Below, piece after piece: positions 1,257-60,512 of a DNA stretch of 64,000 nt. Source of the DNA: Profundicola chukchiensis (GTDB lineage: Bacteria > Bacteroidota > Bacteroidia > Flavobacteriales > Weeksellaceae); contig NZ_JANAIE010000003.1 of the NCBI RefSeq assembly GCF_029664245.1, positions 372,001 to 436,000 of the forward strand, read 5' to 3'. A program made the position numbers and the translations under genes. Numbering within the stretch: the stretch's first letter is position 1; each line of letters begins with the position of its first letter. Below the pieces are notes generated by a model that saw only the letters and a program-made list of their open reading frames with translations, made no database searches and was not told where the DNA came from.

Positions 1257-1961
1257 CTAAAACTTTAGATAAAAATCTTTAGTTAGGTTAATATATTCTT
1301 GCGTATAAATATGTCTTTCCACTTCAATGATTAATTCATCTGGAGTGGATTTTTTTTGTTCACGTCCAAATGCAATTAAACTTCTTTTTAATGGTGCGTT
1401 TTCATTTCCTCTCACGCGAGTTATTTTATGAGGGAACAAATTATTTCTTTCTGCTAACTCACAAATATTAATTTCTTCTTTGTAAGGAACGATAACCGAA
1501 AAAATTCCATCGGGTGAAAGTAGGCTATTCACTTTTTCCATTAAATCTGAGAATTCTAGGCTAGATGTGTTGCGAGCTAAATTTCTTTTATTATTCGGCG
1601 CAAAAGTTTTTTCGGTATAGAATGGAGGGTTTGAAACGATTAAATCGAAATACGACGAAAAAAACAGCGTTTTTATATCCGATTTAAGGCATTTTAAACG
1701 ATTAGCCCAGGGGCTATTATCAAAATTAAATTTGCTTTCCTTAAAAGCGTCTAAATCAATTTCGACAGCAGTTATCTGTGCATTTTGAGTTCGCTGTGCA
1801 AGCATTAATGATATCACACCCGTTCCAGCTCCAATATCTAATATTTTTTCTGTCTTATTTTGGATGGGCGTCCACGCACCTAATAAGACGGCATCGGTTC
1901 CAACTTTAGCGGCAGCTTTTTTTTGGGTGACTTGAAATTGTTTAAACTTGAATGTGGACAT
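1257..1961 (-). CDS. trmN: tRNA1(Val) (adenine-37 N6)-methyltransferase, YfiC/TrmN6 family
   Basis: A 234-residue class I SAM-dependent methyltransferase. The SAM-binding motif I reads DIGAGTGVISLML (about residues 42-54), and the catalytic N6-adenine motif NPPF lies in LIVSNPPFYTEK (about 109-120). In this family the enzyme makes m6A37 in the anticodon loop of tRNA-Val. Length and motif order match YfiC. The gene is monocistronic and converges on the secreted-protein gene at 751-1254. A TATATTTG box on the minus strand lies about 15 bp upstream of the ATG. Confidence 0.88.
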   Translation of the reverse strand: MSTFKFKQFQVTQKKAAAKVGTDAVLLGAWTPIQNKTEKILDIGAGTGVISLMLAQRTQNAQITAVEIDLDAFKESKFNFDNSPWANRLKCLKSDIKTLFFSSYFDLIVSNPPFYTEKTFAPNNKRNLARNTSSLEFSDLMEKVNSLLSPDGIFSVIVPYKEEINICELAERNNLFPHKITRVRGNENAPLKRSLIAFGREQKKSTPDELIIEVERHIYTQEYINLTKDFYLKF

Positions 1962-1976
1962 GCTTGCAAATATACG

Positions 1977-1984
1977 TCGCTTGT
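1977..1984 (-). promoter_or_regulatory. Candidate -7 box (TATATTTG) of trmN
   Basis: The minus strand reads TATATTTG, a match to the Bacteroidota TAnnTTTG element, 15 bp upstream of the trmN ATG. No convincing -33 TTG at normal spacing. Confidence 0.5.
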
Positions 1985-2106
1985 TAAATTTAAATATCCA
2001 TTCTTCTTTGGAATCAGATGAATCTAGCTTTTTAACTTAGAAAAGCAATTTTATTATTTTGAACTGGAAATAAATTGACTAAATTTAACATCTTAAATTC
2101 ACAATT

Positions 2107-3354
2107 ATGGAACACAAATTCTATCCAGAGAGTAAAATGATGAGCCACGGATACAATCCGCAGTGGTCAGAAGGAGCTATAAAATGTCCAATTTTCCAAA
2201 CTTCAACTTTTGTTTTTAAATCAGCAGAAGAGGGAAAAGCATTTTTTGAGTTAGCCTATGGTAAAAGAGATCCAGAACCAAATGAGGTTCCGGGATTAAT
2301 TTATTCAAGGTTAAACAATCCAGATTTACAGATTCTAGAAGAGCGTTTGTGTTTATGGGATAAGGCAGAACAAGCTGCTGTTTTCGAAAGTGGAATGTCT
2401 GCTATCACAACTGTTTTATTGGAGTTTTTAAGACCAGGAGACTTATTGCTTTATAGCCGCCCAGTCTATGGTGGAACAGATCACTTTATTAATGAAGTTC
2501 TTCCGCAATTTAATGTAGAAGTTGTAGAATTCTACGCAGGTCAGTCTCAAGAAGAAATTCAAGCAAATATCGATAAAACAGGAAAAGCTGATAGATTAAA
2601 ACTTATTCTTTGCGAAACTCCAGCGAATCCTACTAATGCACAAATAGATTTTGAGGTATGTACAGCTATTAAAGAGCATTATAGTACAGAAGAAAATCCT
2701 GTGTATATGGCGGTAGATAATACTTATATGGGACCACTTTGGCAACATCCATTAGAGCATGGCGCTGATTTAGTGATGTATTCTGCAACAAAATATATTG
2801 GTGGACATTCAGATTTAATCGCGGGTGCTGTATTAGGTTCAAATGAGCTTATGGCACGAATTAAAGGCCTTAGAACTTTCTTAGGTAACATGGCAAGCCC
2901 AAATACAGGTTGGTTGCTTATGCGAAGCCTAGAGACCTTAAAAGTACGTATGGAGGCTCAACAAGCGAATGCTATTAAGATTGCTGATTTCTTGAAGAAT
3001 CACGACAAGGTAGAGAAGGTATATTATTTAGGTCATTTAGAAGAAGGAACAAAAGATTACGAAATTTTCAAAAGACAATGTTCTGGACCAGGAGCAATGG
3101 TTGCTTTTGATGTGAAAGGTGGTGAAAAAGAAGCATTTAAGGTGTTGAATAGTTTAAAACTCATTCAATTAGCTGTTAGTTTAGGCTCAACTGAAAGTTT
3201 AGCTCAACATCCAAAAACAATGACGCACGCTGGTGTTCCAGAGGAGGATTTAGAAAGATTGAGCATTACAGATAAATTAATCAGATTATCTGCAGGTGTA
3301 GAAAATCATGAAGATTTAATTTGGGATTTAGATCAGGCGTTGGCTCAGATTTAA
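2107..3354 (+). CDS. Cystathionine gamma-synthase / methionine gamma-lyase family PLP enzyme
   Basis: A 415-residue fold-type I PLP enzyme of the Cys/Met metabolism family. The cofactor lysine is K229 in SATKYIGGHSD, and the active-site loop ESGMSAITT is present near residue 98. Members are trans-sulfuration synthases (cystathionine gamma-synthase, O-acetylhomoserine sulfhydrylase) or gamma-lyases that release methanethiol and 2-oxobutanoate. The SLGSTESLAQHPKTMTHAG region near the C-terminus fits both. There are no methionine-pathway neighbours to separate these roles, so I leave the substrate open. The gene stands alone and ends at a terminator. Confidence 0.85.
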   Translation: MEHKFYPESKMMSHGYNPQWSEGAIKCPIFQTSTFVFKSAEEGKAFFELAYGKRDPEPNEVPGLIYSRLNNPDLQILEERLCLWDKAEQAAVFESGMSAITTVLLEFLRPGDLLLYSRPVYGGTDHFINEVLPQFNVEVVEFYAGQSQEEIQANIDKTGKADRLKLILCETPANPTNAQIDFEVCTAIKEHYSTEENPVYMAVDNTYMGPLWQHPLEHGADLVMYSATKYIGGHSDLIAGAVLGSNELMARIKGLRTFLGNMASPNTGWLLMRSLETLKVRMEAQQANAIKIADFLKNHDKVEKVYYLGHLEEGTKDYEIFKRQCSGPGAMVAFDVKGGEKEAFKVLNSLKLIQLAVSLGSTESLAQHPKTMTHAGVPEEDLERLSITDKLIRLSAGVENHEDLIWDLDQALAQI

Positions 3355-16500: not shown

Positions 16501-16538
16501 GTATTAAACTTTAAAATTTTATGAATCCTGCAAAGTTT

Positions 16539-16570
16539 TTGACAATCTATCAGAAGATATTGTATTTTTG
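16539..16570 (+). promoter_or_regulatory. Promoter of the GlmS-like gene
   Basis: TTG at 16539-16541 and TATTTTTG at 16563-16570 are separated by 21 bp, close to the Bacteroidota TTG-N19-TAnnTTTG promoter. This is the best two-part match in the window. The ATG is at 16614. Confidence 0.55.
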
Positions 16571-16613: not shown

Positions 16614-18452
16614 ATGTCAGGAATTATAGGTTACATAGGAAAAGGAGAGGCTTTTCCGGTTTTATTACATGGATTAAATCGTTTCGAATTTCGTGGGTAT
16701 GATAGCGTGGGAACAGGAACCATCTCAAATGGTGAGTTTGAATTTCATAAACACGCAGGAAAATTAAAAGATCTAAAAGAAAAATTAGGTGATAATACGC
16801 CAAAAGGGCACATAGGTATTGCGCACTCTAGATGGGCAACACACGGAATTTCGAATCAACTAAATTCGCATCCACATGTTTCTAATTCTGGTAGACTAGC
16901 CATTGTACATAAAGGGATTGTTGAGAACTATGCGAGTTTAAAAGAAAAATTAGTTGAAGAAGGATATAAATTTCATACTGAAACAGATACAGAAGTTTTA
17001 ATCAACTGGATTGAGCATATTCAAAAAGAAGGTGATTTAAATCTTCTAGAAGCAATTCAAGTTGCCATGAATCAAGTGGTTGGAGCTTATTCTTTAATCG
17101 TTATCGATAAAGAAGAAAATGCTATGTATGCTGTAAGAAAAGGAGCTCAGTTGGTGATTGGAGTTGATAAAGATGCCTATGTAGTAGCAACCGATTCTGC
17201 ACCGTTGAGTACGCTTACCGATGAGGTAATTTACATGGAAGAGAAAGATGTTTATCGTTTAGCACATGGAGAAGAAATCAAGGTTCTAAACTTAGATAAT
17301 ATCACCAAAACTCCAATAATTGAAAAGTTAGAAGAAGCCTTAGAGACCATTGAAAAAGATGGTTATGATCACTTCATGTTGAAAGAGATCTACGAACAAC
17401 CTCAAATGATTATTGATTCATTCCGTGGACGAATGAATGCTAGTGAAGGTTGGGTACGTTTAGGTGGTGTAAATGAGTATAGAAATAAGCTAAATAAAAC
17501 CAAAAGAATGATCTTTGGTGCTTGTGGTACTTCTTGGCATGCTGCTTTGGTTGGAGAGTATTTAATCGAGGAATTAGCTCGAATTCCAGTGGAAGTGGAG
17601 TACGCGTCTGAGTTCCGTTACAGAAACCCAATTATTGATGGTGATGATGTATTTGTTGCGATTTCACAATCTGGGGAAACAGCCGATACGATTGCTGCAA
17701 TAGAGTTGGCGAAAGAAAATCAAGCTTTAATTTATGGTATTTGTAACTCAGTAGGTTCTACAATTTCTAAAATGTCTCATGCTGGATCTTATACGCATGC
17801 AGGTCAAGAGATAGGAATTGCATCTACCAAGGCCTTTACCACTCAGGTTGTTATTTTAACTTTAATGGCATTGCAATTAGCAGATTATAAAGGTAATTTA
17901 TCTAAAACTCAGTTAAATGCAACATTGTTTGAGTTAGAGCAAATTCCAGAAAAGATTAGAAAAATTTTAAAACTAGATGATGAGATTAAAGCGATTGCAA
18001 AAGAATATCACCAAGCGAATAATTTCTTATTCTTAGGTCGTGGTGCTTGTTATCCTATTGCTTTAGAGGGAGCTTTAAAATTAAAAGAGATTTCTTATAT
18101 CCATGCAGAGGGCTATCCAGCAGCTGAAATGAAACACGGACCTATTGCATTGATTGATGAAAATATGCCTGTTGTAGTGGTAGCAAATAATGATTCTGCT
18201 TACGAGAAAATCGTATCTAATATTCAAGAAGTGAAAGCGCGTAAAGGAAAAGTTATTGCTATTGTGAATGAAGGAGATACAGTGATTAAGGGAATTGCAG
18301 ATCACGTGATTGAAATACCAGCGACTTTAGAGATTTTCGCTCCTTTAGTTTCAGTGGTTCCATTGCAATTATTAGCTTACCATATTGCTGTTTGGAGAGG
18401 TGCAGATGTGGATAATCCAAGAAACTTAACTAAATCAGTTACAGTAGAATAA
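16614..18452 (+). CDS. GlmS paralog (glucosamine-6-phosphate synthase) with degenerate glutaminase site
   Basis: 612 residues with the GlmS layout: an N-terminal Ntn-type glutaminase domain (1-240) and two SIS sugar-isomerase domains (about 290-430 and 460-600). The isomerase half looks intact: CGTSWHA, ISQSGETADT, EIGIASTKAFTTQ, ALEGALKLKEIS, GYPAAEMKHGP and the terminal NLTKSVTVE. The glutaminase half lacks key residues. The protein starts MSGIIGYIG, where family members start MCGI with the N-terminal Cys as nucleophile. The oxyanion-hole Asn of HNGI is Lys100 here (VHKGIVENY). HSRWATHG is kept. So glutamine hydrolysis should be lost. It could work with free ammonia, act as a sugar-phosphate isomerase, or be regulatory; a normal glmS probably exists elsewhere. 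Confidence 0.85.
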   Translation: MSGIIGYIGKGEAFPVLLHGLNRFEFRGYDSVGTGTISNGEFEFHKHAGKLKDLKEKLGDNTPKGHIGIAHSRWATHGISNQLNSHPHVSNSGRLAIVHKGIVENYASLKEKLVEEGYKFHTETDTEVLINWIEHIQKEGDLNLLEAIQVAMNQVVGAYSLIVIDKEENAMYAVRKGAQLVIGVDKDAYVVATDSAPLSTLTDEVIYMEEKDVYRLAHGEEIKVLNLDNITKTPIIEKLEEALETIEKDGYDHFMLKEIYEQPQMIIDSFRGRMNASEGWVRLGGVNEYRNKLNKTKRMIFGACGTSWHAALVGEYLIEELARIPVEVEYASEFRYRNPIIDGDDVFVAISQSGETADTIAAIELAKENQALIYGICNSVGSTISKMSHAGSYTHAGQEIGIASTKAFTTQVVILTLMALQLADYKGNLSKTQLNATLFELEQIPEKIRKILKLDDEIKAIAKEYHQANNFLFLGRGACYPIALEGALKLKEISYIHAEGYPAAEMKHGPIALIDENMPVVVVANNDSAYEKIVSNIQEVKARKGKVIAIVNEGDTVIKGIADHVIEIPATLEIFAPLVSVVPLQLLAYHIAVWRGADVDNPRNLTKSVTVE

Positions 18453-18470
18453 AATAAATTAATAAAAATA

Positions 18471-18507
18471 AAAAAGCCTTCTTGCATGCGTAAGAAGGCT
18501 TTTTTTT
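18471..18507. terminator. Bidirectional terminator between the GlmS-like gene and pyrD
   Basis: AAAAAGCCTTCTT and AAGAAGGCTTTTT form a 13-bp stem with A and T tracts on both sides, serving the two convergent genes. Confidence 0.9.
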
Positions 18508-18526: not shown

Positions 18527-19540
18527 TTAAAGTCCTTTACAAATATTCTTCACGATGCCGGGTCCTTCGTAGATAAACCCAGTATAAACCTGAAGTAAAC
18601 TTGCACCAGCTTCTAATTTTTCTTTAGCATCCTCTGCATTGAAAATTCCTCCCACACCAATGATAATCAACTTACCCTTTGATTGCGTATGAAGATATTT
18701 TATCACTTCTGTACTTCGTTGAGTTAAAGGTTTTCCACTAACCCCACCTGCTTCTGAAACGACTTTAGGATCTCCCATTAAGCCCTCTCTAGCAATAGTA
18801 GTATTGGTAGCAACAATTCCATTTAGGTTTAAATTCAAAGCAATTTCTATAATATCATCTAATTGACTTTGGCTTAAGTCTGGAGCGATTTTAAGCAATA
18901 TAGGACGAGCTTTACCTAATTCTGTGTTGATGAGTTGCAAACGAGATAATAATCGTTGTAGTGGCTCTTTTTCTTGTAGTTCGCGCAAGTTGGGAGTGTT
19001 GGGGCTGCTTACATTTACCACAAAATAATCTACATAATCGTACAATTTACGAAAGCAATATTCATAATCATCTATGGCTCTTTCGTTCGGTGTAGTTTTA
19101 TTTTTCCCAATATTTCCGCCTACAATAATGTCTGATTTTCTCTTTTTCAATCTTTCTACCGCAGCATCAACTCCCTCATTATTAAATCCCATACGATTGA
19201 TTAATGCTTCATCGCTAGGAAGTCTAAATAAGCGTGGTTTATCATTCCCAGCTTGTGGTTTCGGGGTTAAGGTTCCGATTTCTACATAGCCAAAACCTAA
19301 TTTAGCTAAATCATCTATATACTTGGCATCCTTGTCAAACCCAGCAGCAAGTCCAATCGGGTTTTTAAATTTTAAACCCCATAATTCTCTGTTCAATGAT
19401 TTTTTATCAAACGAAAATTGACTTTTAATAATAGGACTGAAAAGAAAAGAACTTCCCCAAGTGTGGAGTTTATTCATGACCCAATGATGCGCTTCTTCTG
19501 GATCTTTTTTAAACAATAATTTCTTGATGAGTGGATACAT
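18527..19540 (-). CDS. pyrD: Dihydroorotate dehydrogenase (quinone), class 2
   Basis: A 337-residue FMN enzyme that oxidises dihydroorotate to orotate with quinone as acceptor. The N-terminal helix region ([12 protein letters not shown]) used for membrane association is present, which marks class 2. The active-site segment [14 protein letters not shown] carries the catalytic Ser. [14 protein letters not shown] and [19 protein letters not shown] are FMN-site signatures. The next pyrimidine step, pyrE/pyrF, is encoded 2 kb away on the same strand as a fusion. A CAAAAATA (-7 on the minus strand) lies 13 bp upstream. Confidence 0.94.
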
Positions 19541-21525: not shown

Positions 21526-22875
21526 TTAAGAAAGGCTGTCTTCATATGCTTTCCAACCTTGCTGGCGATATTCTTCGGTAGCTGCAACGGGATCATTGGC
21601 TTTATAAATTCCGCGTCCTACAATCATAAAGTCCGTTAGGTACTCAGAGAATACCTTCTTAGGCGTGTTGTATTGTTGTCCTTTGCTATCGCCTTTTTTG
21701 TCTATGTTAACGCCAGGCGTCAATAACAATAAATCATCTGGAACTTGTCTTTGAGCTACTACTGCGAATACATCCGCTGATTTTTGAGCAATATTTAATG
21801 CTTTAGAAACATAATAATCATCGGTTAAAGCACCTGCAGAAGACATTTCTACAATGGCTACAACACCAGTTGGTTCAAAAACGTCAAAGCTTTTTTCTCC
21901 AGCAATAGGGTGTGCTGTTACCATATCAACCCAATCTGCAAAACGGTAAACACCTTGTTTGAACTGTAATTCTTGGGTATTTCCAATATCAGCGAATTTT
22001 CTATCCTCAAATAATAAGAAGTCCTTTTCTCTTGCAATAGTTCTTAGTTCAGTGACTAAATCCCAACTAAAATCAGTGATGATATCTGAATGTAATTTTA
22101 AGGCAACAATTTTATCTCCAATTCCTTTAGCTAAATTGATTAACTCTAGGGAACTCACAACATCTGCCGAGGCAATTAAGTTAGATTTTTTACGTAACGC
22201 AATGTCAATCATGTTTTTACCTACAGGATGCTGAACTTCTTTATCTTGTAGAGGGGTTCTTTTTCTGCTAGGAGCTTGTGGAGGCATACTTAAGAAATCC
22301 TTGATTTTCTTTACTTCTCCTTCATCCAATCTTTTGTATTTGAATAAAATATCAATTACCTCGTTAATGGTAAATAAGGTATGAACATTATATCCTTTTT
22401 CTTCTAATCGCTGAATACCACCTTGTTCTCTGTCTAATACAACAACCAAATCGGTAACAACTAAACCTTCTTTTTCAACTTCGTCGATGGTTTCTACCAA
22501 ACTTTTACCGCTGGTAATTACGTCCTCTACCAACAAACAATTTTGTCCATCGTGAAAAACACCTTCCAACATGCGTTTTGTTCCATAGCCTTTGTTTTCC
22601 TTTCTTTTAATGATCAAAGGAATCCCACTTTCTAAGGACATTGTGGTCGCCATAGGCAAAGCGGCATAAGGAACGCCACAAATCAGTTCAAGTTTTGAAT
22701 TATCAACCAATTGCAATAAATTGTTTGACAATGTTTTTAATAATTGTGGGCTAGATGCTAGCGGTCTTAAATCCACATAAAAAGGAGATTCAATACCACT
22801 TTTAAGGGTGAAACTTCCAAATTTAATAATTCCGAGTTCGTAGGCTTTTAATAAAAAATCTTCGCGTGCTTGCAT
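21526..22875 (-). CDS. Bifunctional UMP synthase: orotate phosphoribosyltransferase - OMP decarboxylase fusion
   Basis: 449 residues. The N-terminal domain (1-190) is an orotate phosphoribosyltransferase with the PRPP motif LLVEDVITSGKSL (about 113-125). The C-terminal domain (about 215-449) is an OMP decarboxylase with DRKFADIGNT (D291, K293, D296), EMSSAGAL, LLTPGV and FMIVGRGIY. The domain order and the DRKFADIGNT motif are those of eukaryotic UMPS/URA3 decarboxylases; E. coli PyrF reads DLKFHDIPNT. The protein converts orotate to UMP in two steps. A single reading frame with no internal start or stop supports a true fusion. Possibly acquired laterally. Confidence 0.93.
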   Translation of the reverse strand: MQAREDFLLKAYELGIIKFGSFTLKSGIESPFYVDLRPLASSPQLLKTLSNNLLQLVDNSKLELICGVPYAALPMATTMSLESGIPLIIKRKENKGYGTKRMLEGVFHDGQNCLLVEDVITSGKSLVETIDEVEKEGLVVTDLVVVLDREQGGIQRLEEKGYNVHTLFTINEVIDILFKYKRLDEGEVKKIKDFLSMPPQAPSRKRTPLQDKEVQHPVGKNMIDIALRKKSNLIASADVVSSLELINLAKGIGDKIVALKLHSDIITDFSWDLVTELRTIAREKDFLLFEDRKFADIGNTQELQFKQGVYRFADWVDMVTAHPIAGEKSFDVFEPTGVVAIVEMSSAGALTDDYYVSKALNIAQKSADVFAVVAQRQVPDDLLLLTPGVNIDKKGDSKGQQYNTPKKVFSEYLTDFMIVGRGIYKANDPVAATEEYRQQGWKAYEDSLS

Positions 22876-37562: not shown

Positions 37563-39218
37563 ATGAATCACATGAAAAATATTAATCCTACTCAAACAGA
37601 GGCTTGGAAAAAGTTACAAACGCATTTCGGTGAAATCAAACAAAGCCATTTAAGAGATTTATTCGAGCAAAATCAAAATAGATTTCAGGATTTTCATGTG
37701 AAGTTCGAGGAAATATTATTCGATTATTCTAAAAATAGAATGACCGAAGCCACGAGAGATTTATTAATTCAATTGGCAGAGGAATGTGATCTAAAATCTG
37801 CTATAAATTCCATGTTTAGCGGAGAAAATATAAATCAAACAGAAGATAGAGCAGTTCTGCATACAGCATTGAGAAATTTTGAGGATGAACCCATATTAGT
37901 AGATGGAAAAGATGTTTTGCCTGAGGTGGAGAAAGTGAGAAATCGAATGAAACTTTTTACAGCCAAGGTGATTTCTGGCGCATGGAAAGGTTTCTCTGGT
38001 CAACAAATTACCGATGTAGTTAATATCGGGATTGGTGGTTCTGACCTTGGTCCTGTGATGGTAGTGGAAGCTTTAAAACATTATAAATCTAGATTAAATG
38101 TTCACTTTGTTTCTAACATCGACGGAACGCATATAAGTGAAACTTTAAAAGATTTAAATCCGGAAACCACTTTATTCATCATTGCGTCTAAGACATTTAC
38201 AACGCAGGAAACCATGACCAACGCACAAACGGCGAAGGATTGGTTCTTGAATTCCGAAGCAAAGGAAACTGATGTAGCTAAGCACTTTGTGGCACTTTCT
38301 ACCAACGAAGAAGGCGTAACAGCTTTCGGGATTGATAAAGCTAACATGTTTGAGTTTTGGGATTGGGTTGGCGGAAGATATTCTTTGTGGTCGGCGATTG
38401 GATTGAGTATTTCGCTAGCTGTGGGATATGATAATTTCGAGAAATTATTAAAAGGAGCATATAAAACAGATGTTCATTTTAATGAAGCTGAATTCAATGA
38501 AAATATTCCTGTTTTAATGGGATTAATAGGAATTTGGTATAACAATTTCTTTGACGCAGAATCTTATGCCATCTTGCCTTACGAGCAGTATTTACACCGA
38601 TTTTCTGCTTATTTGCAACAAGGAGATATGGAATCCAATGGTAAATCTGTAGATAGAAACGGCGATAAAGTAGATTATCAAACCGGGCCGATAATTTGGG
38701 GAGAGCCAGGAACCAATGGTCAACACGCGTTTTATCAATTAATCCATCAGGGAACAAAAATGATTCCGGCAGATTTCTTGGGAGCAGTCGAAAGTCATAA
38801 TCCAACAGGAGATCATCATGTGAAATTAATGGCAAATTTCTTTGCTCAAACAGAAGCATTAGCTTTTGGTAAAACCGAAGCCCAAGTCCGTGAAGAGTTA
38901 AATAAGGAAGGAAAATCCCCAGAGCAAATAGATTTTTTAACGCCTTATAAAGTCTTTGATGGAAATCATCCTACCAATTCATTTTTATATCAGAAACTTA
39001 CACCAGAAGTATTGGGTAGCTTAATCGCTATGTATGAACATAAAATCTTTGTTCAAGGTGTGATTTGGAATATTTTCAGTTTCGATCAGTGGGGCGTGGA
39101 ATTAGGAAAACAGCTCGCAAAGACAGTCTTAAATGAGCTAAATTCTACAGATGAGGTGAAATCGCATGATAGTTCAACCAACGGACTTATGAATGCATTT
39201 AAGCAAATGAGAAAATAA
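37563..39218 (+). CDS. pgi: Glucose-6-phosphate isomerase
   Basis: A 551-residue SIS-fold enzyme interconverting glucose-6-P and fructose-6-[29 protein letters not shown] and the catalytic segment [17 protein letters not shown] are family signatures, and [11 protein letters not shown] near the C-terminus carries the late catalytic Lys. A second ATG at residue 4 (37572) could be the true start. The gene appears monocistronic; the sulfotransferase gene follows after 52 bp. Confidence 0.97.
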
Positions 39219-56998: not shown

Positions 56999-58633
56999 AT
57001 GACCAGAAAACAATTTATTATAAAAATGGGATTAGGAGCATTTGGATTAGTCATCGGAAGAACAATGATTGGAAAAATTCTATCAGAGCCCTTTTATAAG
57101 AATGGAGGTCATTATCCCATCATTATTGTTGGAACAGGATATGGTAGCGCCGTAGCTGCCGAAAGATTGGCTACCCAAGGTCACAAAGTCTTAATGCTAG
57201 AAGTTGGTTTAGATTGGGAAGGTTATAAACAACAGAACCCAGATTTTAAATTTCATAAGATGACTTTCCCCGGTAAGGAAAGCACTTGGATGAATAAAAA
57301 GCCACAAGCGCCGATAGAATTGGGAAATATGGCGAGGTTCGATGAGTTTACGGGCGTTCTACAACGAATAGATTACGAGCATGTAAAGGTATATTTAGGA
57401 AAAGGTGTTGGCGGAGGTTCCTTGGTCAATGGCGGCATGACGGTTGTTCCCGATAGAAATTATTTTCAAGAGATATATCATAAAGTTGGCGTTGAGTTGT
57501 CTGATGCAGAGTTAGATGAGTTTTATACGACTTACTTCCCGCGTGCTAATGAAGGCGTTGGAAAACAAGATGCGCCCGAAGATATTGTCAATTCTAAATG
57601 GTACAAATTTGCTAGAGTTGGAGTGCAAGAGGGAATTGATGCAGGATTTGAGCCGGTAGATGTTCCGAACTTGTATGATTTCGATTATATGCGCAAAGAA
57701 ATTGCCGGAGAAGTTCCTGGTTCGGCTACGGATAAGGAAGTGATTTATGGAAACAATTACGGTAAACGAGATTTAACCAAAACTTACCTAAAAAGAGCCT
57801 TGGCAACGGGTAATGTTACCATTATGCCTCAACATAAAGTGGTTGAAATCAAAGAAAACTTCGATGGAACTTATCAGCTCGAGATTGAACAAATTGATAC
57901 TTTAGATCGTGCGGTTGAAACTAAAACTTTCACTTGCGACAAGCTATTCATTGGTGCAGGAAGTCTGGGTACGACAGCTTTATTATTAAAGTCTAAACTC
58001 AAAGGTGGTTTATCTAAAATAGATGCCAATGTAGGTAAATACTGGGGAAATAATGGAAATACCATGGCCAGTCGCAATACCCTGAACTTTATTGGGCATA
58101 CTTCTCGAGGGCTGAAACAATCTACCATGCCGATTCGTGGCTTGAGTAATTTTGATGATCCAGAGCATCCCTTCTTTGCTGAAATTGCACCAATGCCTGT
58201 GATGGGAGCTTATACAGGATTATACTTAATCGTGAATAAACTTAAGAAGTTTGGTGAGTTTAGTTATGATTTAACCAATGACGAATTAAAGCTAGATTGG
58301 AACGAAAGCCATACCGCACACATGAGAAAAAACGCTGAGTTTTTCCTGGACCGTATGAATGAACATGGATCTAAAGGTTGGTTTGGATCTAAGTTTAGTA
58401 ACAACAAAATGCTGATGCCTAAAAACGGAGTCGATGAAAGTATTTGTTATCACCCGTTAGGTGGCGTAGTCTTAGGCAAAGCTACTGACTTATACGGAAG
58501 GCTCAAAGGCTATAAAAACCTATATATTATGGATGGTTCATTAATCCCCGGAAGCTTAGGTGTTAATCCATATGTTACCATTACCGCCATCGCCGAAAGA
58601 AATATCGATAAAATTATTGCTCAGGATTTTTAA
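56999..58633 (+). CDS. Cholesterol-oxidase-like GMC oxidoreductase, copy 1
   Basis: A 544-residue FAD enzyme of the GMC family closest to class I cholesterol oxidase (ChoA). The Rossmann loop is IIIVGTGYGSAVAAERL (about 41-57), then GKGVGGGSLVNGGM and FPRANEGVG. The three catalytic residues of Streptomyces ChoA align: E395 in FAEIAPMP, H485 in YHPLGG and N523 in GVNPYVT. ChoA oxidises 3-beta-hydroxysterols and isomerises the double bond, making H2O2. The N-terminus MTRKQFIIKMGLGAFGLVIG looks like a Tat signal with RK in place of RR. A second copy follows 241 bp later. Confidence 0.85.
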   Translation: MTRKQFIIKMGLGAFGLVIGRTMIGKILSEPFYKNGGHYPIIIVGTGYGSAVAAERLATQGHKVLMLEVGLDWEGYKQQNPDFKFHKMTFPGKESTWMNKKPQAPIELGNMARFDEFTGVLQRIDYEHVKVYLGKGVGGGSLVNGGMTVVPDRNYFQEIYHKVGVELSDAELDEFYTTYFPRANEGVGKQDAPEDIVNSKWYKFARVGVQEGIDAGFEPVDVPNLYDFDYMRKEIAGEVPGSATDKEVIYGNNYGKRDLTKTYLKRALATGNVTIMPQHKVVEIKENFDGTYQLEIEQIDTLDRAVETKTFTCDKLFIGAGSLGTTALLLKSKLKGGLSKIDANVGKYWGNNGNTMASRNTLNFIGHTSRGLKQSTMPIRGLSNFDDPEHPFFAEIAPMPVMGAYTGLYLIVNKLKKFGEFSYDLTNDELKLDWNESHTAHMRKNAEFFLDRMNEHGSKGWFGSKFSNNKMLMPKNGVDESICYHPLGGVVLGKATDLYGRLKGYKNLYIMDGSLIPGSLGVNPYVTITAIAERNIDKIIAQDF

Positions 58634-58874: not shown

Positions 58875-60512
58875 ATGACACGGAAAGAATTCCTGAAAAA
58901 ATTAGGCCTGGGAGCATTTGGTCTAGTGATTGGGAGGTCGATGATTGGTAAAGCTTTAGCTGCACCCATATATCAAAACGGTGGGAACTTCCCAATCATC
59001 ATTATAGGAACAGGCTATGGTAGTGCTGTTTCTGCGGAAAGATTAGCCCAAGCAGGTCATCAGGTTTTGATGCTAGAGATGGGATTGGACTGGGATGGTT
59101 ATAAACAACAGAATCCAGGCTTTAAATTCCCTAAAATGACTTCGCCAAGCAAGCAAAGCACTTGGATGAACACCAAACCACAAGCACCGATAGAGCTTGG
59201 GAACATGGCTAACTTTGATAAGTTCACTGGAATTTTAGAACGAGTGGATTACGATCATATCAAGATTTATCAAGGAAAAGGAGTTGGTGGAGGTTCTTTA
59301 GTAAATGGTGGAATGACGGTTACGCCAGATCGCAACTACTTTAAACAGGTTTTTGAGGACGTGGGGGTGAACTTTACAGAGCAGGAATTAGATGATTTCT
59401 TCAATGTTTATTTCCCAAGAGCAAATACCAATGTAGGAAGGCAAGTCGCTCCTCAAGATGTAGTAGATTCTGAGTGGTATAAATTTGCGCGAGTTGGGAT
59501 TCAAGAAGGAGTTGCAGCTGGGTTTACACCCGTAGATGTGCCTAATCTGTATGATTTTGAACACATGCGCCAAGAAATTGCAGGAAATGCACCACGTTCT
59601 GCTACGAACATTGAGGTGTTATATGGGAATAACCATGGCAAACAAGATTTGACCAAAACCTACATCAAAAGGGCATTGAATACAGGAAATGTTACAATTC
59701 TACCTCAGCATAAAGTAGATCATATCATCGAAAACTATGATGGTACATTTACTTTGAAAGTTCAACAAATTGATACGCTAAATAGAGATGTTTGTATTAA
59801 AGAATTTACCTGTGAGAAATTGTTTGTTGGTGCGGGAAGCTTGGGAACTACAGAGTTATTGCAAAAATCTAAGTATTTAGGAAAGCTCAAAAAGCTTAAT
59901 GATGAGGTAGGAAAGTATTGGGGGAACAATGGTAACGTAATGGCAAGCCGTCGCTCTAATGCTGATTTTTTTGGGCATACTTCTAGAGGAGCTAATCAAT
60001 CTACCATGCCGATTAGAGGATTAGATAATTTTAATGATCCTGTGTATCCCTTTTTTGCGGAGATTGCACCTATGCCAACTTTAGGAAGTTTAACCTCCTT
60101 GTATTTAATAGTTAATAAACTGAAGCGCTTTGGTAAGCTATCTTATGATGGCTATAGGAGAAAACTACAATTAGAGTGGGATGCAAGACATACTGCACAC
60201 ATGAGAACTAATGCAGAGTATTTTTTAAACCAAATGAATGAGCATGGTTCTAAGTCTAATTTTGGAAGTAAATTTATAAACAATACCACTTTCTTCCCAA
60301 ATAATGGAGTAGACGAAAGCATTTGTTATCATCCACTAGGTGGTGTGGTCTTAGGAAAAGCTACTGATATGTTTGGTAGACTTAAAGGCTATTCAAACTT
60401 ATATGTAATGGATGGATCTTTGATTCCTGGAACTTTGGGAGTTAATCCTTACGTAAGTATTACGGCTATTGCAGAGAGAAATATAGAACACATTATCAAC
60501 CATGATTTTTAA
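58875..60512 (+). CDS. Cholesterol-oxidase-like GMC oxidoreductase, copy 2
   Basis: A 545-residue tandem paralog of the preceding gene, very similar throughout. IIIIGTGYGSAVSAERL, GKGVGGGSLVNGGMTVTP and FPRANTNVG are kept. Catalytic-site equivalents of ChoA are E396 (FAEIAPMP), H486 (YHPLGG) and N524 (GVNPYVS). The start MTRKEFLKKLGLGAFGLVIG is a good Tat-like signal with RK instead of RR, ending near ALAAP. The gene for a secreted protein follows after 6 bp, so the oxidase and both secreted proteins form one operon. Confidence 0.87.
   Translation: MTRKEFLKKLGLGAFGLVIGRSMIGKALAAPIYQNGGNFPIIIIGTGYGSAVSAERLAQAGHQVLMLEMGLDWDGYKQQNPGFKFPKMTSPSKQSTWMNTKPQAPIELGNMANFDKFTGILERVDYDHIKIYQGKGVGGGSLVNGGMTVTPDRNYFKQVFEDVGVNFTEQELDDFFNVYFPRANTNVGRQVAPQDVVDSEWYKFARVGIQEGVAAGFTPVDVPNLYDFEHMRQEIAGNAPRSATNIEVLYGNNHGKQDLTKTYIKRALNTGNVTILPQHKVDHIIENYDGTFTLKVQQIDTLNRDVCIKEFTCEKLFVGAGSLGTTELLQKSKYLGKLKKLNDEVGKYWGNNGNVMASRRSNADFFGHTSRGANQSTMPIRGLDNFNDPVYPFFAEIAPMPTLGSLTSLYLIVNKLKRFGKLSYDGYRRKLQLEWDARHTAHMRTNAEYFLNQMNEHGSKSNFGSKFINNTTFFPNNGVDESICYHPLGGVVLGKATDMFGRLKGYSNLYVMDGSLIPGTLGVNPYVSITAIAERNIEHIINHDF

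Follow-up and report, generated by a model that had tools for sequence, protein, structure and literature searches.

A rare GlmS lineage of the Bacteroidota with serine and lysine at the glutaminase site, a candidate ammonia-using glucosamine 6-phosphate synthase

The first amino sugar of the bacterial wall is the product of glucosamine-6-phosphate (GlcN6P) synthase, GlmS, an enzyme described in PMC9272926 as unable to use ammonia and, in not accepting it, as unique among amidotransferases. In the same account, Cys1 is the sole catalytic residue of the glutaminase domain, the catalytic roles of the isomerase domain fall to Glu488, His504 and Lys603, and deletion of GlmS is reported to be lethal in bacteria. 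We analysed a GlmS gene that departs from this description within a 64,000-nucleotide stretch of DNA, the whole of which is referred to here as the window.

The window protein matches the GlmS equivalog model TIGR01135 over positions 2-607 of 607, scoring 734 bits against a cut-off of 418, and this full-length match places it in the GlmS family (Table 1). Neither Cys1 nor Asn98, the latter presumably part of the oxyanion hole in E. coli GlmS, is present. A sequence-only reading of this DNA had claimed Ser at residue 2 and Lys at residue 100, and both were confirmed (TCA and AAA); both also occur in a second assembly, in a protein 77% identical to that of the window, and sequencing error or chance is therefore judged unlikely. 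That reading was also right that the HSRWATHG motif (residues 71-78) and the SIS motifs are present, and every SIS residue checked is intact. The promoter-like element, a match to TTTG-N21-TATTTTTG, which we take to be the Bacteroidetes promoter consensus, suggests that the gene may be transcribed on its own; ahead of the copy in the second assembly, no such pattern was found.

Table 1. Features of the window GlmS gene (window coordinates).
Feature	Position	Strand	Basis or remark
Ser2/Lys100-type GlmS gene	16614..18452	+	ORF of 612 aa, ATG start, uninterrupted
Codon 2, TCA = Ser, replaces catalytic Cys1 (mature numbering)	16617..16619	+	Sequence and homologue alignment
Codon 100, AAA = Lys (VHKGIVEN), replaces Asn98 (E. 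coli mature numbering)	16911..16913	+	Sequence and alignment
Class II glutaminase (Ntn) half, residues 1-242	16614..17339	+	Divergent, frame open; boundary set in this analysis
Isomerase half, residues 243-612, two SIS stretches	17340..18449	+	Catalytic residues kept, strongly constrained
Codon 402, Ile; Val in 153/153 distinct Cys2 sequences (E. coli Val399, isomerase site)	17817..17819	+	Common to L054
Codon 606, Thr; Ala in 153/153 distinct Cys2 sequences (E. coli Ala602, C-tail adjoining Lys603)	18429..18431	+	Common to L054
Promoter-like TTTG-N21-TATTTTTG	16538..16570	+	Pattern match
Terminator-like inverted repeat, then T run	18475..18507	+	Read by eye

Residue identities were taken solely from the sequences fetched, which comprised 166 full-length GlmS loci, 155 of them distinct. 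Cys2 was found in 153 of the 155, each with Asn at column 100, and the Ser2 and Lys100 pair in the other two, the window protein and L054. The latter comes from the metagenome-assembled genome (MAG) DX1.bin71 ('Bacteroidetes bacterium') and was among the best 80 loci in a scan of genome contigs. Among 148 sampled genomes of the window's family, including the window's own genome (G000), 144 had a GlmS match at E <= 1e-60, and G000 alone carried two full-length GlmS. The other two sampled genomes of the genus have one GlmS each, so that the Ser/Lys form occurs in one of three. Across 395 genomes of the order, 45 had a match at E <= 1e-231; leaving aside the gene of the window itself, the closest of these was 59% identical. 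An exact-motif search with HKG[IV][IV]EN, Met also being permitted at the bracketed positions, matched 5 of 395 phylum genomes, and the window's was the only GlmS among them; the backward control pattern matched in 3 of the 395. This kind of GlmS is thus real and seems to be rare, with two members known. No natural GlmS lacking Cys1 was found among the open-licence papers listed, judged by titles and abstract starts.

The genome G000, which is 99.96% complete, does hold the normal GlmS that the sequence-only reading had supposed might exist, with MCGIVGYIG and VHNGIIEN, on another contig and behind a DUF4270 gene. The two GlmS of G000 are 55% identical. In a tree of 76 rows chosen from 157 available distinct sequences (quick search, no bootstrap), the window GlmS and L054 formed one branch with an SH-aLRT of 100; its stem measures 0.97 changes per site, and the two tips 0.23 and 0.26. 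This branch adjoins Chitinophagaceae-like GlmS (support 97) and is widely separated from the normal GlmS both of the window's family and of its order's families, its exact place being unsure because the stem is long. A recent duplication of G000's own GlmS was rejected, given the 55% identity and the distant tree position. The Ser2/Lys pair is therefore conserved in a clade, with two members so far on one branch, and, since it marks a clade, selection is favoured over random decay, as had been proposed.

We then compared the two halves of the protein at columns conserved in at least 95% of the Cys-type set, to which the normal G000 GlmS itself belongs. Among 82 such columns in the glutaminase half, 20 are changed in the window protein, 22 in L054 and 1 in the normal G000 GlmS; among 166 in the isomerase half, the corresponding numbers are 8, 13 and 1. 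The earlier remark that the rest of the protein is well kept thus holds for the isomerase half and fails for the glutaminase half. Identity between the window protein and L054 is 66% in the glutaminase half and 85% in the isomerase half, a divergence ratio of 2.28, compared with a mean of 1.22 (sd 0.25, 95th percentile 1.69) for Cys-type pairs of 74-81% identity (n=759, non-independent). NG86 estimates of dN/dS were 0.235/1.53 for the glutaminase half and 0.103/2.79 for the isomerase half, of which the direction alone counts, dS being saturated; maximum-likelihood values were unstable. Constraint on the glutaminase half is thus relaxed without having been lost, and that on the isomerase half is tight. 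A copy that is decaying and now serves no function might be expected to show the fast divergence of the glutaminase half and the occurrence in only one of three sampled genomes of the genus. However, the 612-codon frame is open, dN is far below dS, the isomerase residues are kept and the same changes occur in two genomes at different loci, and we regard decay as extremely improbable.

In both the window protein and L054, the isomerase catalytic residues (E. coli E481, K485, E488, H504 and K603) and the sugar-site residues T302, S303, S347, Q348, S349 and T352 are unchanged, part of the roles given to them here being those we presume; Glu488, His504 and Lys603 are thus all in place in the window protein. 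Where the other 153 sequences show no variation, the changes that the two proteins share include Val399 to Ile and Ala602 to Thr. Both positions are named as isomerase-site contacts in docking (PMC9272926). In human GFAT2, Ala676 is listed among the contacts of the gate Trp (PMC7948480), and we have taken it, counting back from the C-terminus, as the probable counterpart of Ala602.

The glutamine-site residues Arg73, Trp74, Thr76, His77, His86, Gly99 and Asp123 are kept in the window protein, which could point to continued binding or use of glutamine. The protein might then be a GlmS that still uses glutamine, with Ser1, perhaps together with Lys98, as the nucleophile in place of Cys1. Serine acts as the N-terminal nucleophile in other Ntn hydrolases, and removal of Met would still expose it; the retention of the other checked glutamine-site residues and the constraint that remains on the glutaminase half are in keeping with such an enzyme. 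Nevertheless, we consider it quite unlikely: Asn98 is lost as well, 20 of 82 conserved sites are gone, the divergence ratio exceeds the 95th percentile of the Cys-type pairs, and Cys1 is named in PMC9272926 as the sole catalytic residue of the domain. That the window GlmS would be unable to cut glutamine follows from known chemistry.

The genome DX1.bin71 (G488) bears on what the Ser/Lys form may do. It belongs to the order of the window's genome: within the family of DX1.bin71, at least two members share match coordinates with group f3 members of that order (G615/G149 and G519/G408). It has one GlmS above the cut-off, the Ser/Lys gene L054, and two weak matches far below. The usual glmS slot is DUF4270-glmS-atpD: DUF4270 lies within 1.5 kb upstream of glmS in 28 of the 29 other fetched family loci, and atpD within 1.5 kb downstream in 5 of those 28, as well as in L040 and L046 from the order search. 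In L116, atpD is 2.4 kb from glmS. In total, seven relatives have glmS between DUF4270 and atpD. In DX1.bin71 this slot, which lies well within a contig of 43.9 kb, reads glgA-like gene, DUF4270, 227 bp, atpD and holds no glmS; no convincing GlmS remnant was found in the 227 bp, the best match having an E of 0.026 over 29 residues.

The contig bearing L054 fits the DX1.bin71 genome by its rpsA and its tetranucleotide profile. It holds the genome's only full-length rpsA match, 86% identical to that of the congener G510 and 76-83% identical to those of five other family members, and its tetranucleotide correlation is 0.99 with two other DX1.bin71 contigs and 0.81-0.94 with six stretches of other genomes. 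Since the stated coverage of this contig is about 3.4x and the MAG may be incomplete, a normal glmS could be in unassembled DNA. In the family of DX1.bin71, 10 of 149 sampled genomes have no GlmS match, probably through incompleteness; absence alone is therefore little evidence, and the empty slot is more telling. DX1.bin71 seems to have lost the normal GlmS and apparently has the Ser/Lys form as its sole one.

We also noted a Cys-type GlmS in G510, the only other genome compared from the genus of DX1.bin71, at positions 1513-3348 of a 4.3 kb contig (C199, L191). It has no DUF4270 match beside it, falls on a long branch among Cytophagales-like sequences, and is either a contaminant or a second, different glmS replacement. 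The DUF4270 gene of G510 ends a contig, which makes its slot unreadable.

With moderate confidence, we propose that the window protein is a glutamine-independent, ammonia-using GlcN6P synthase, an activity that we infer from its sequence. Since GlmS deletion is reported to be lethal and the Ser/Lys form is the only one found, the DX1.bin71 lineage should make GlcN6P with it; with Cys1 and Asn98 gone, free ammonia would be the likeliest source of nitrogen. The empty slot and the lack of a detected normal GlmS in DX1.bin71 strengthen the ammonia reading, one of three functions that the sequence-only reading had offered. The Ser/Lys GlmS would still dimerise and bind fructose 6-phosphate, and its glutaminase half would no longer cut glutamine and would survive as a scaffold and lid. 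Free ammonia would enter the isomerase site, where Thr and Ile stand at the positions of Ala602 and Val399, and glucosamine 6-phosphate would be formed. In G000, the Ser/Lys form would work alongside the normal enzyme, for example under ample ammonia or scarce glutamine, or while glutamine-analogue antibiotics block the Cys1 enzyme. Such use of ammonia would be unusual, since characterised GlmS is described as not using it.

Another candidate function, likewise among those offered in the sequence-only reading, is that of a sugar-phosphate isomerase, or of a GlcN6P deaminase releasing ammonia; here the protein would have no synthase role in vivo. Human GFAT2 is reported to isomerise Fru6P to Glc6P without glutamine (PMC7948480). 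For the deaminase NagB (TIGR00502), no match was found in the whole genomes of G000, DX1.bin71 and G018, and one was found in G042, of the same genus as G000. A deaminase might thus be wanted in both carriers of the Ser/Lys form, but G018, a congener of G000 with a single Cys-type GlmS, likewise lacks a NagB match. The SIS half is somewhat similar to the NagB-II and GlmD models, yet the window protein reaches only 127.6 bits against a cut-off of 430 for NagB-II and 119.6 against 580 for GlmD, and the normal G000 GlmS scores alike (134 and 106). In addition, isomerisation looks to be covered by the ORF at 37563-39218 of the window, which reads to us like a glucose-6-phosphate isomerase, and DX1.bin71, with this as the only GlmS found, should need GlcN6P. 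We consider an isomerase or deaminase role unlikely. As neither G000 nor DX1.bin71 has a NagB match, NagB acting in reverse is no evident bypass.

The sequence-only reading had also offered that the protein regulates a normal GlmS. A regulatory or hetero-oligomeric partner of that kind, or an enzyme supplied with ammonia by a separate glutaminase in trans, would find a normal GlmS to pair with in G000, and bacterial GlmS is described as a dimer (PMC9272926). In DX1.bin71, however, no normal GlmS was detected and its usual slot is empty, which disfavours regulation. Around the L054 copy, moreover, only GlmS was matched among the 12 genes near the window locus (stretches of 17.8-19.0 kb), and the ORF lists of both loci, inspected by eye, hold no glutaminase-like neighbour. 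We regard a partner role as decidedly improbable. Of the earlier functional reading, the existence of a normal GlmS and the clade-wide residue pair are therefore supported, and the regulatory role is disfavoured.

The two copies lie in different surroundings. We take the window gene to sit between an RND-type efflux operon, which it follows, and pyrD, and the L054 gene to be flanked by a peptidase-like gene and rpsA. The neighbours of pyrD in G042 differ from those in the window, and near pyrD in G018 no other window gene was matched; around rpsA in four relatives, rpsA alone was matched out of ten genes of the L054 region. The simplest reading is that both Ser/Lys copies would have been acquired horizontally. 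Plasmid or phage spread of the Ser/Lys form was considered and rejected: 819 plasmid records had a match, the top-ranked being 56% identical and one record, outside the 15 listed, falling in the 60-80% band, and the two viral contigs with a match were 53% identical and had both MCGI and HNGI. These two IMG/VR contigs, L189 and L190, carry GlmS with identical first 130 residues and the normal Cys and Asn, the L189 sequence forming a long branch near Saprospiraceae-type GlmS.

The spread of the gene, more than its chemistry, might be explained by a spare GlmS that escapes antibiotics attacking Cys1, such as bacilysin/anticapsin and FMDP. The window gene does come after the putative RND-type efflux operon, but by eye no efflux operon adjoins the L054 copy. 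These inhibitors are described as binding covalently in the glutamine pocket (PMC4908143), and Cys1 is named as a target (PMC9272926); to help the cell, however, the escape would require the same glutamine-independent activity, and as a separate explanation we hold it to be very improbable. More tentatively than for the activity itself, we suggest a GlmS lineage that gave up glutamine, uses ammonia, spreads horizontally between families of the Bacteroidota and may have replaced the essential glutamine-dependent enzyme in one lineage. If true, this would allow whatever keeps ordinary GlmS from using ammonia to be tested directly, and would provide a GlmS that should be out of reach of Cys1-directed inhibitors.

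Two further features of the window were noted in passing. At 21526-22875 on the minus strand, close to pyrD (18527-19540), a single ORF of 449 aa seems to be a pyrE-pyrF fusion, that is, orotate phosphoribosyltransferase with OMP decarboxylase. At 56999-58633 and 58875-60512, an apparent tandem duplication has left two adjoining similar proteins of about 545 aa, which we take to be oxidoreductase-like, of the GMC type.

Among known systems, E. coli GlmS (1jxa, 2j6h and 4amv) has the same full-length two-domain architecture, with a phmmer match of 1-612 to 4amv, and shares with the window protein the isomerase catalytic residues and most of the glutamine-site residues. The window protein differs from it in Cys1 to Ser, Asn98 to Lys, Ala602 to Thr and Val399 to Ile, and in an unusually divergent glutaminase half. 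In its predicted structure (mean pLDDT 82.7), solved GlmS chains rank first by Foldseek, with a whole-chain TM of 0.52-0.59 for full-length rows and 0.85-0.93, by target length, for isomerase-domain chains; because the domains are placed differently from those of solved GlmS, no active-site geometry was read from the model. The engineered E. coli GlmS C1A (PDB 3ooj) is likewise full-length without the Cys1 nucleophile, but it was made in the laboratory, whereas here the loss is natural and accompanied by a second active-site change. GlmD and NagB-II deaminases share the SIS isomerase fold and the same sugar phosphate. However, a glutaminase domain is lacking in both (model lengths 323 and 330), while the window protein has a GATase_6 match at residues 65-177, and this domain, together with scores far below the cut-offs, places the protein outside both. 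Beta-lactam synthetase and relatives of asparagine synthetase B are class II amidotransferase relatives that have kept a glutaminase-like domain without the catalytic Cys, although their synthetase domain and reaction differ from those of the window protein. By sequence and domains, the window protein is best placed with GlmS, but not as a glutamine-dependent GlmS, since two residues that define the glutamine-using enzyme are replaced. Among the systems compared, the nearest evolutionary parallel may be the NAD synthetases, for which PMC3376133 describes members that use glutamine and others that use ammonia, along with loss in particular lineages and horizontal transfer, as would apply here. 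The ammonia-using NAD synthetase has no glutaminase domain and is thought in that account to be ancestral, whereas in the Ser/Lys GlmS the domain stays and the loss would be derived.
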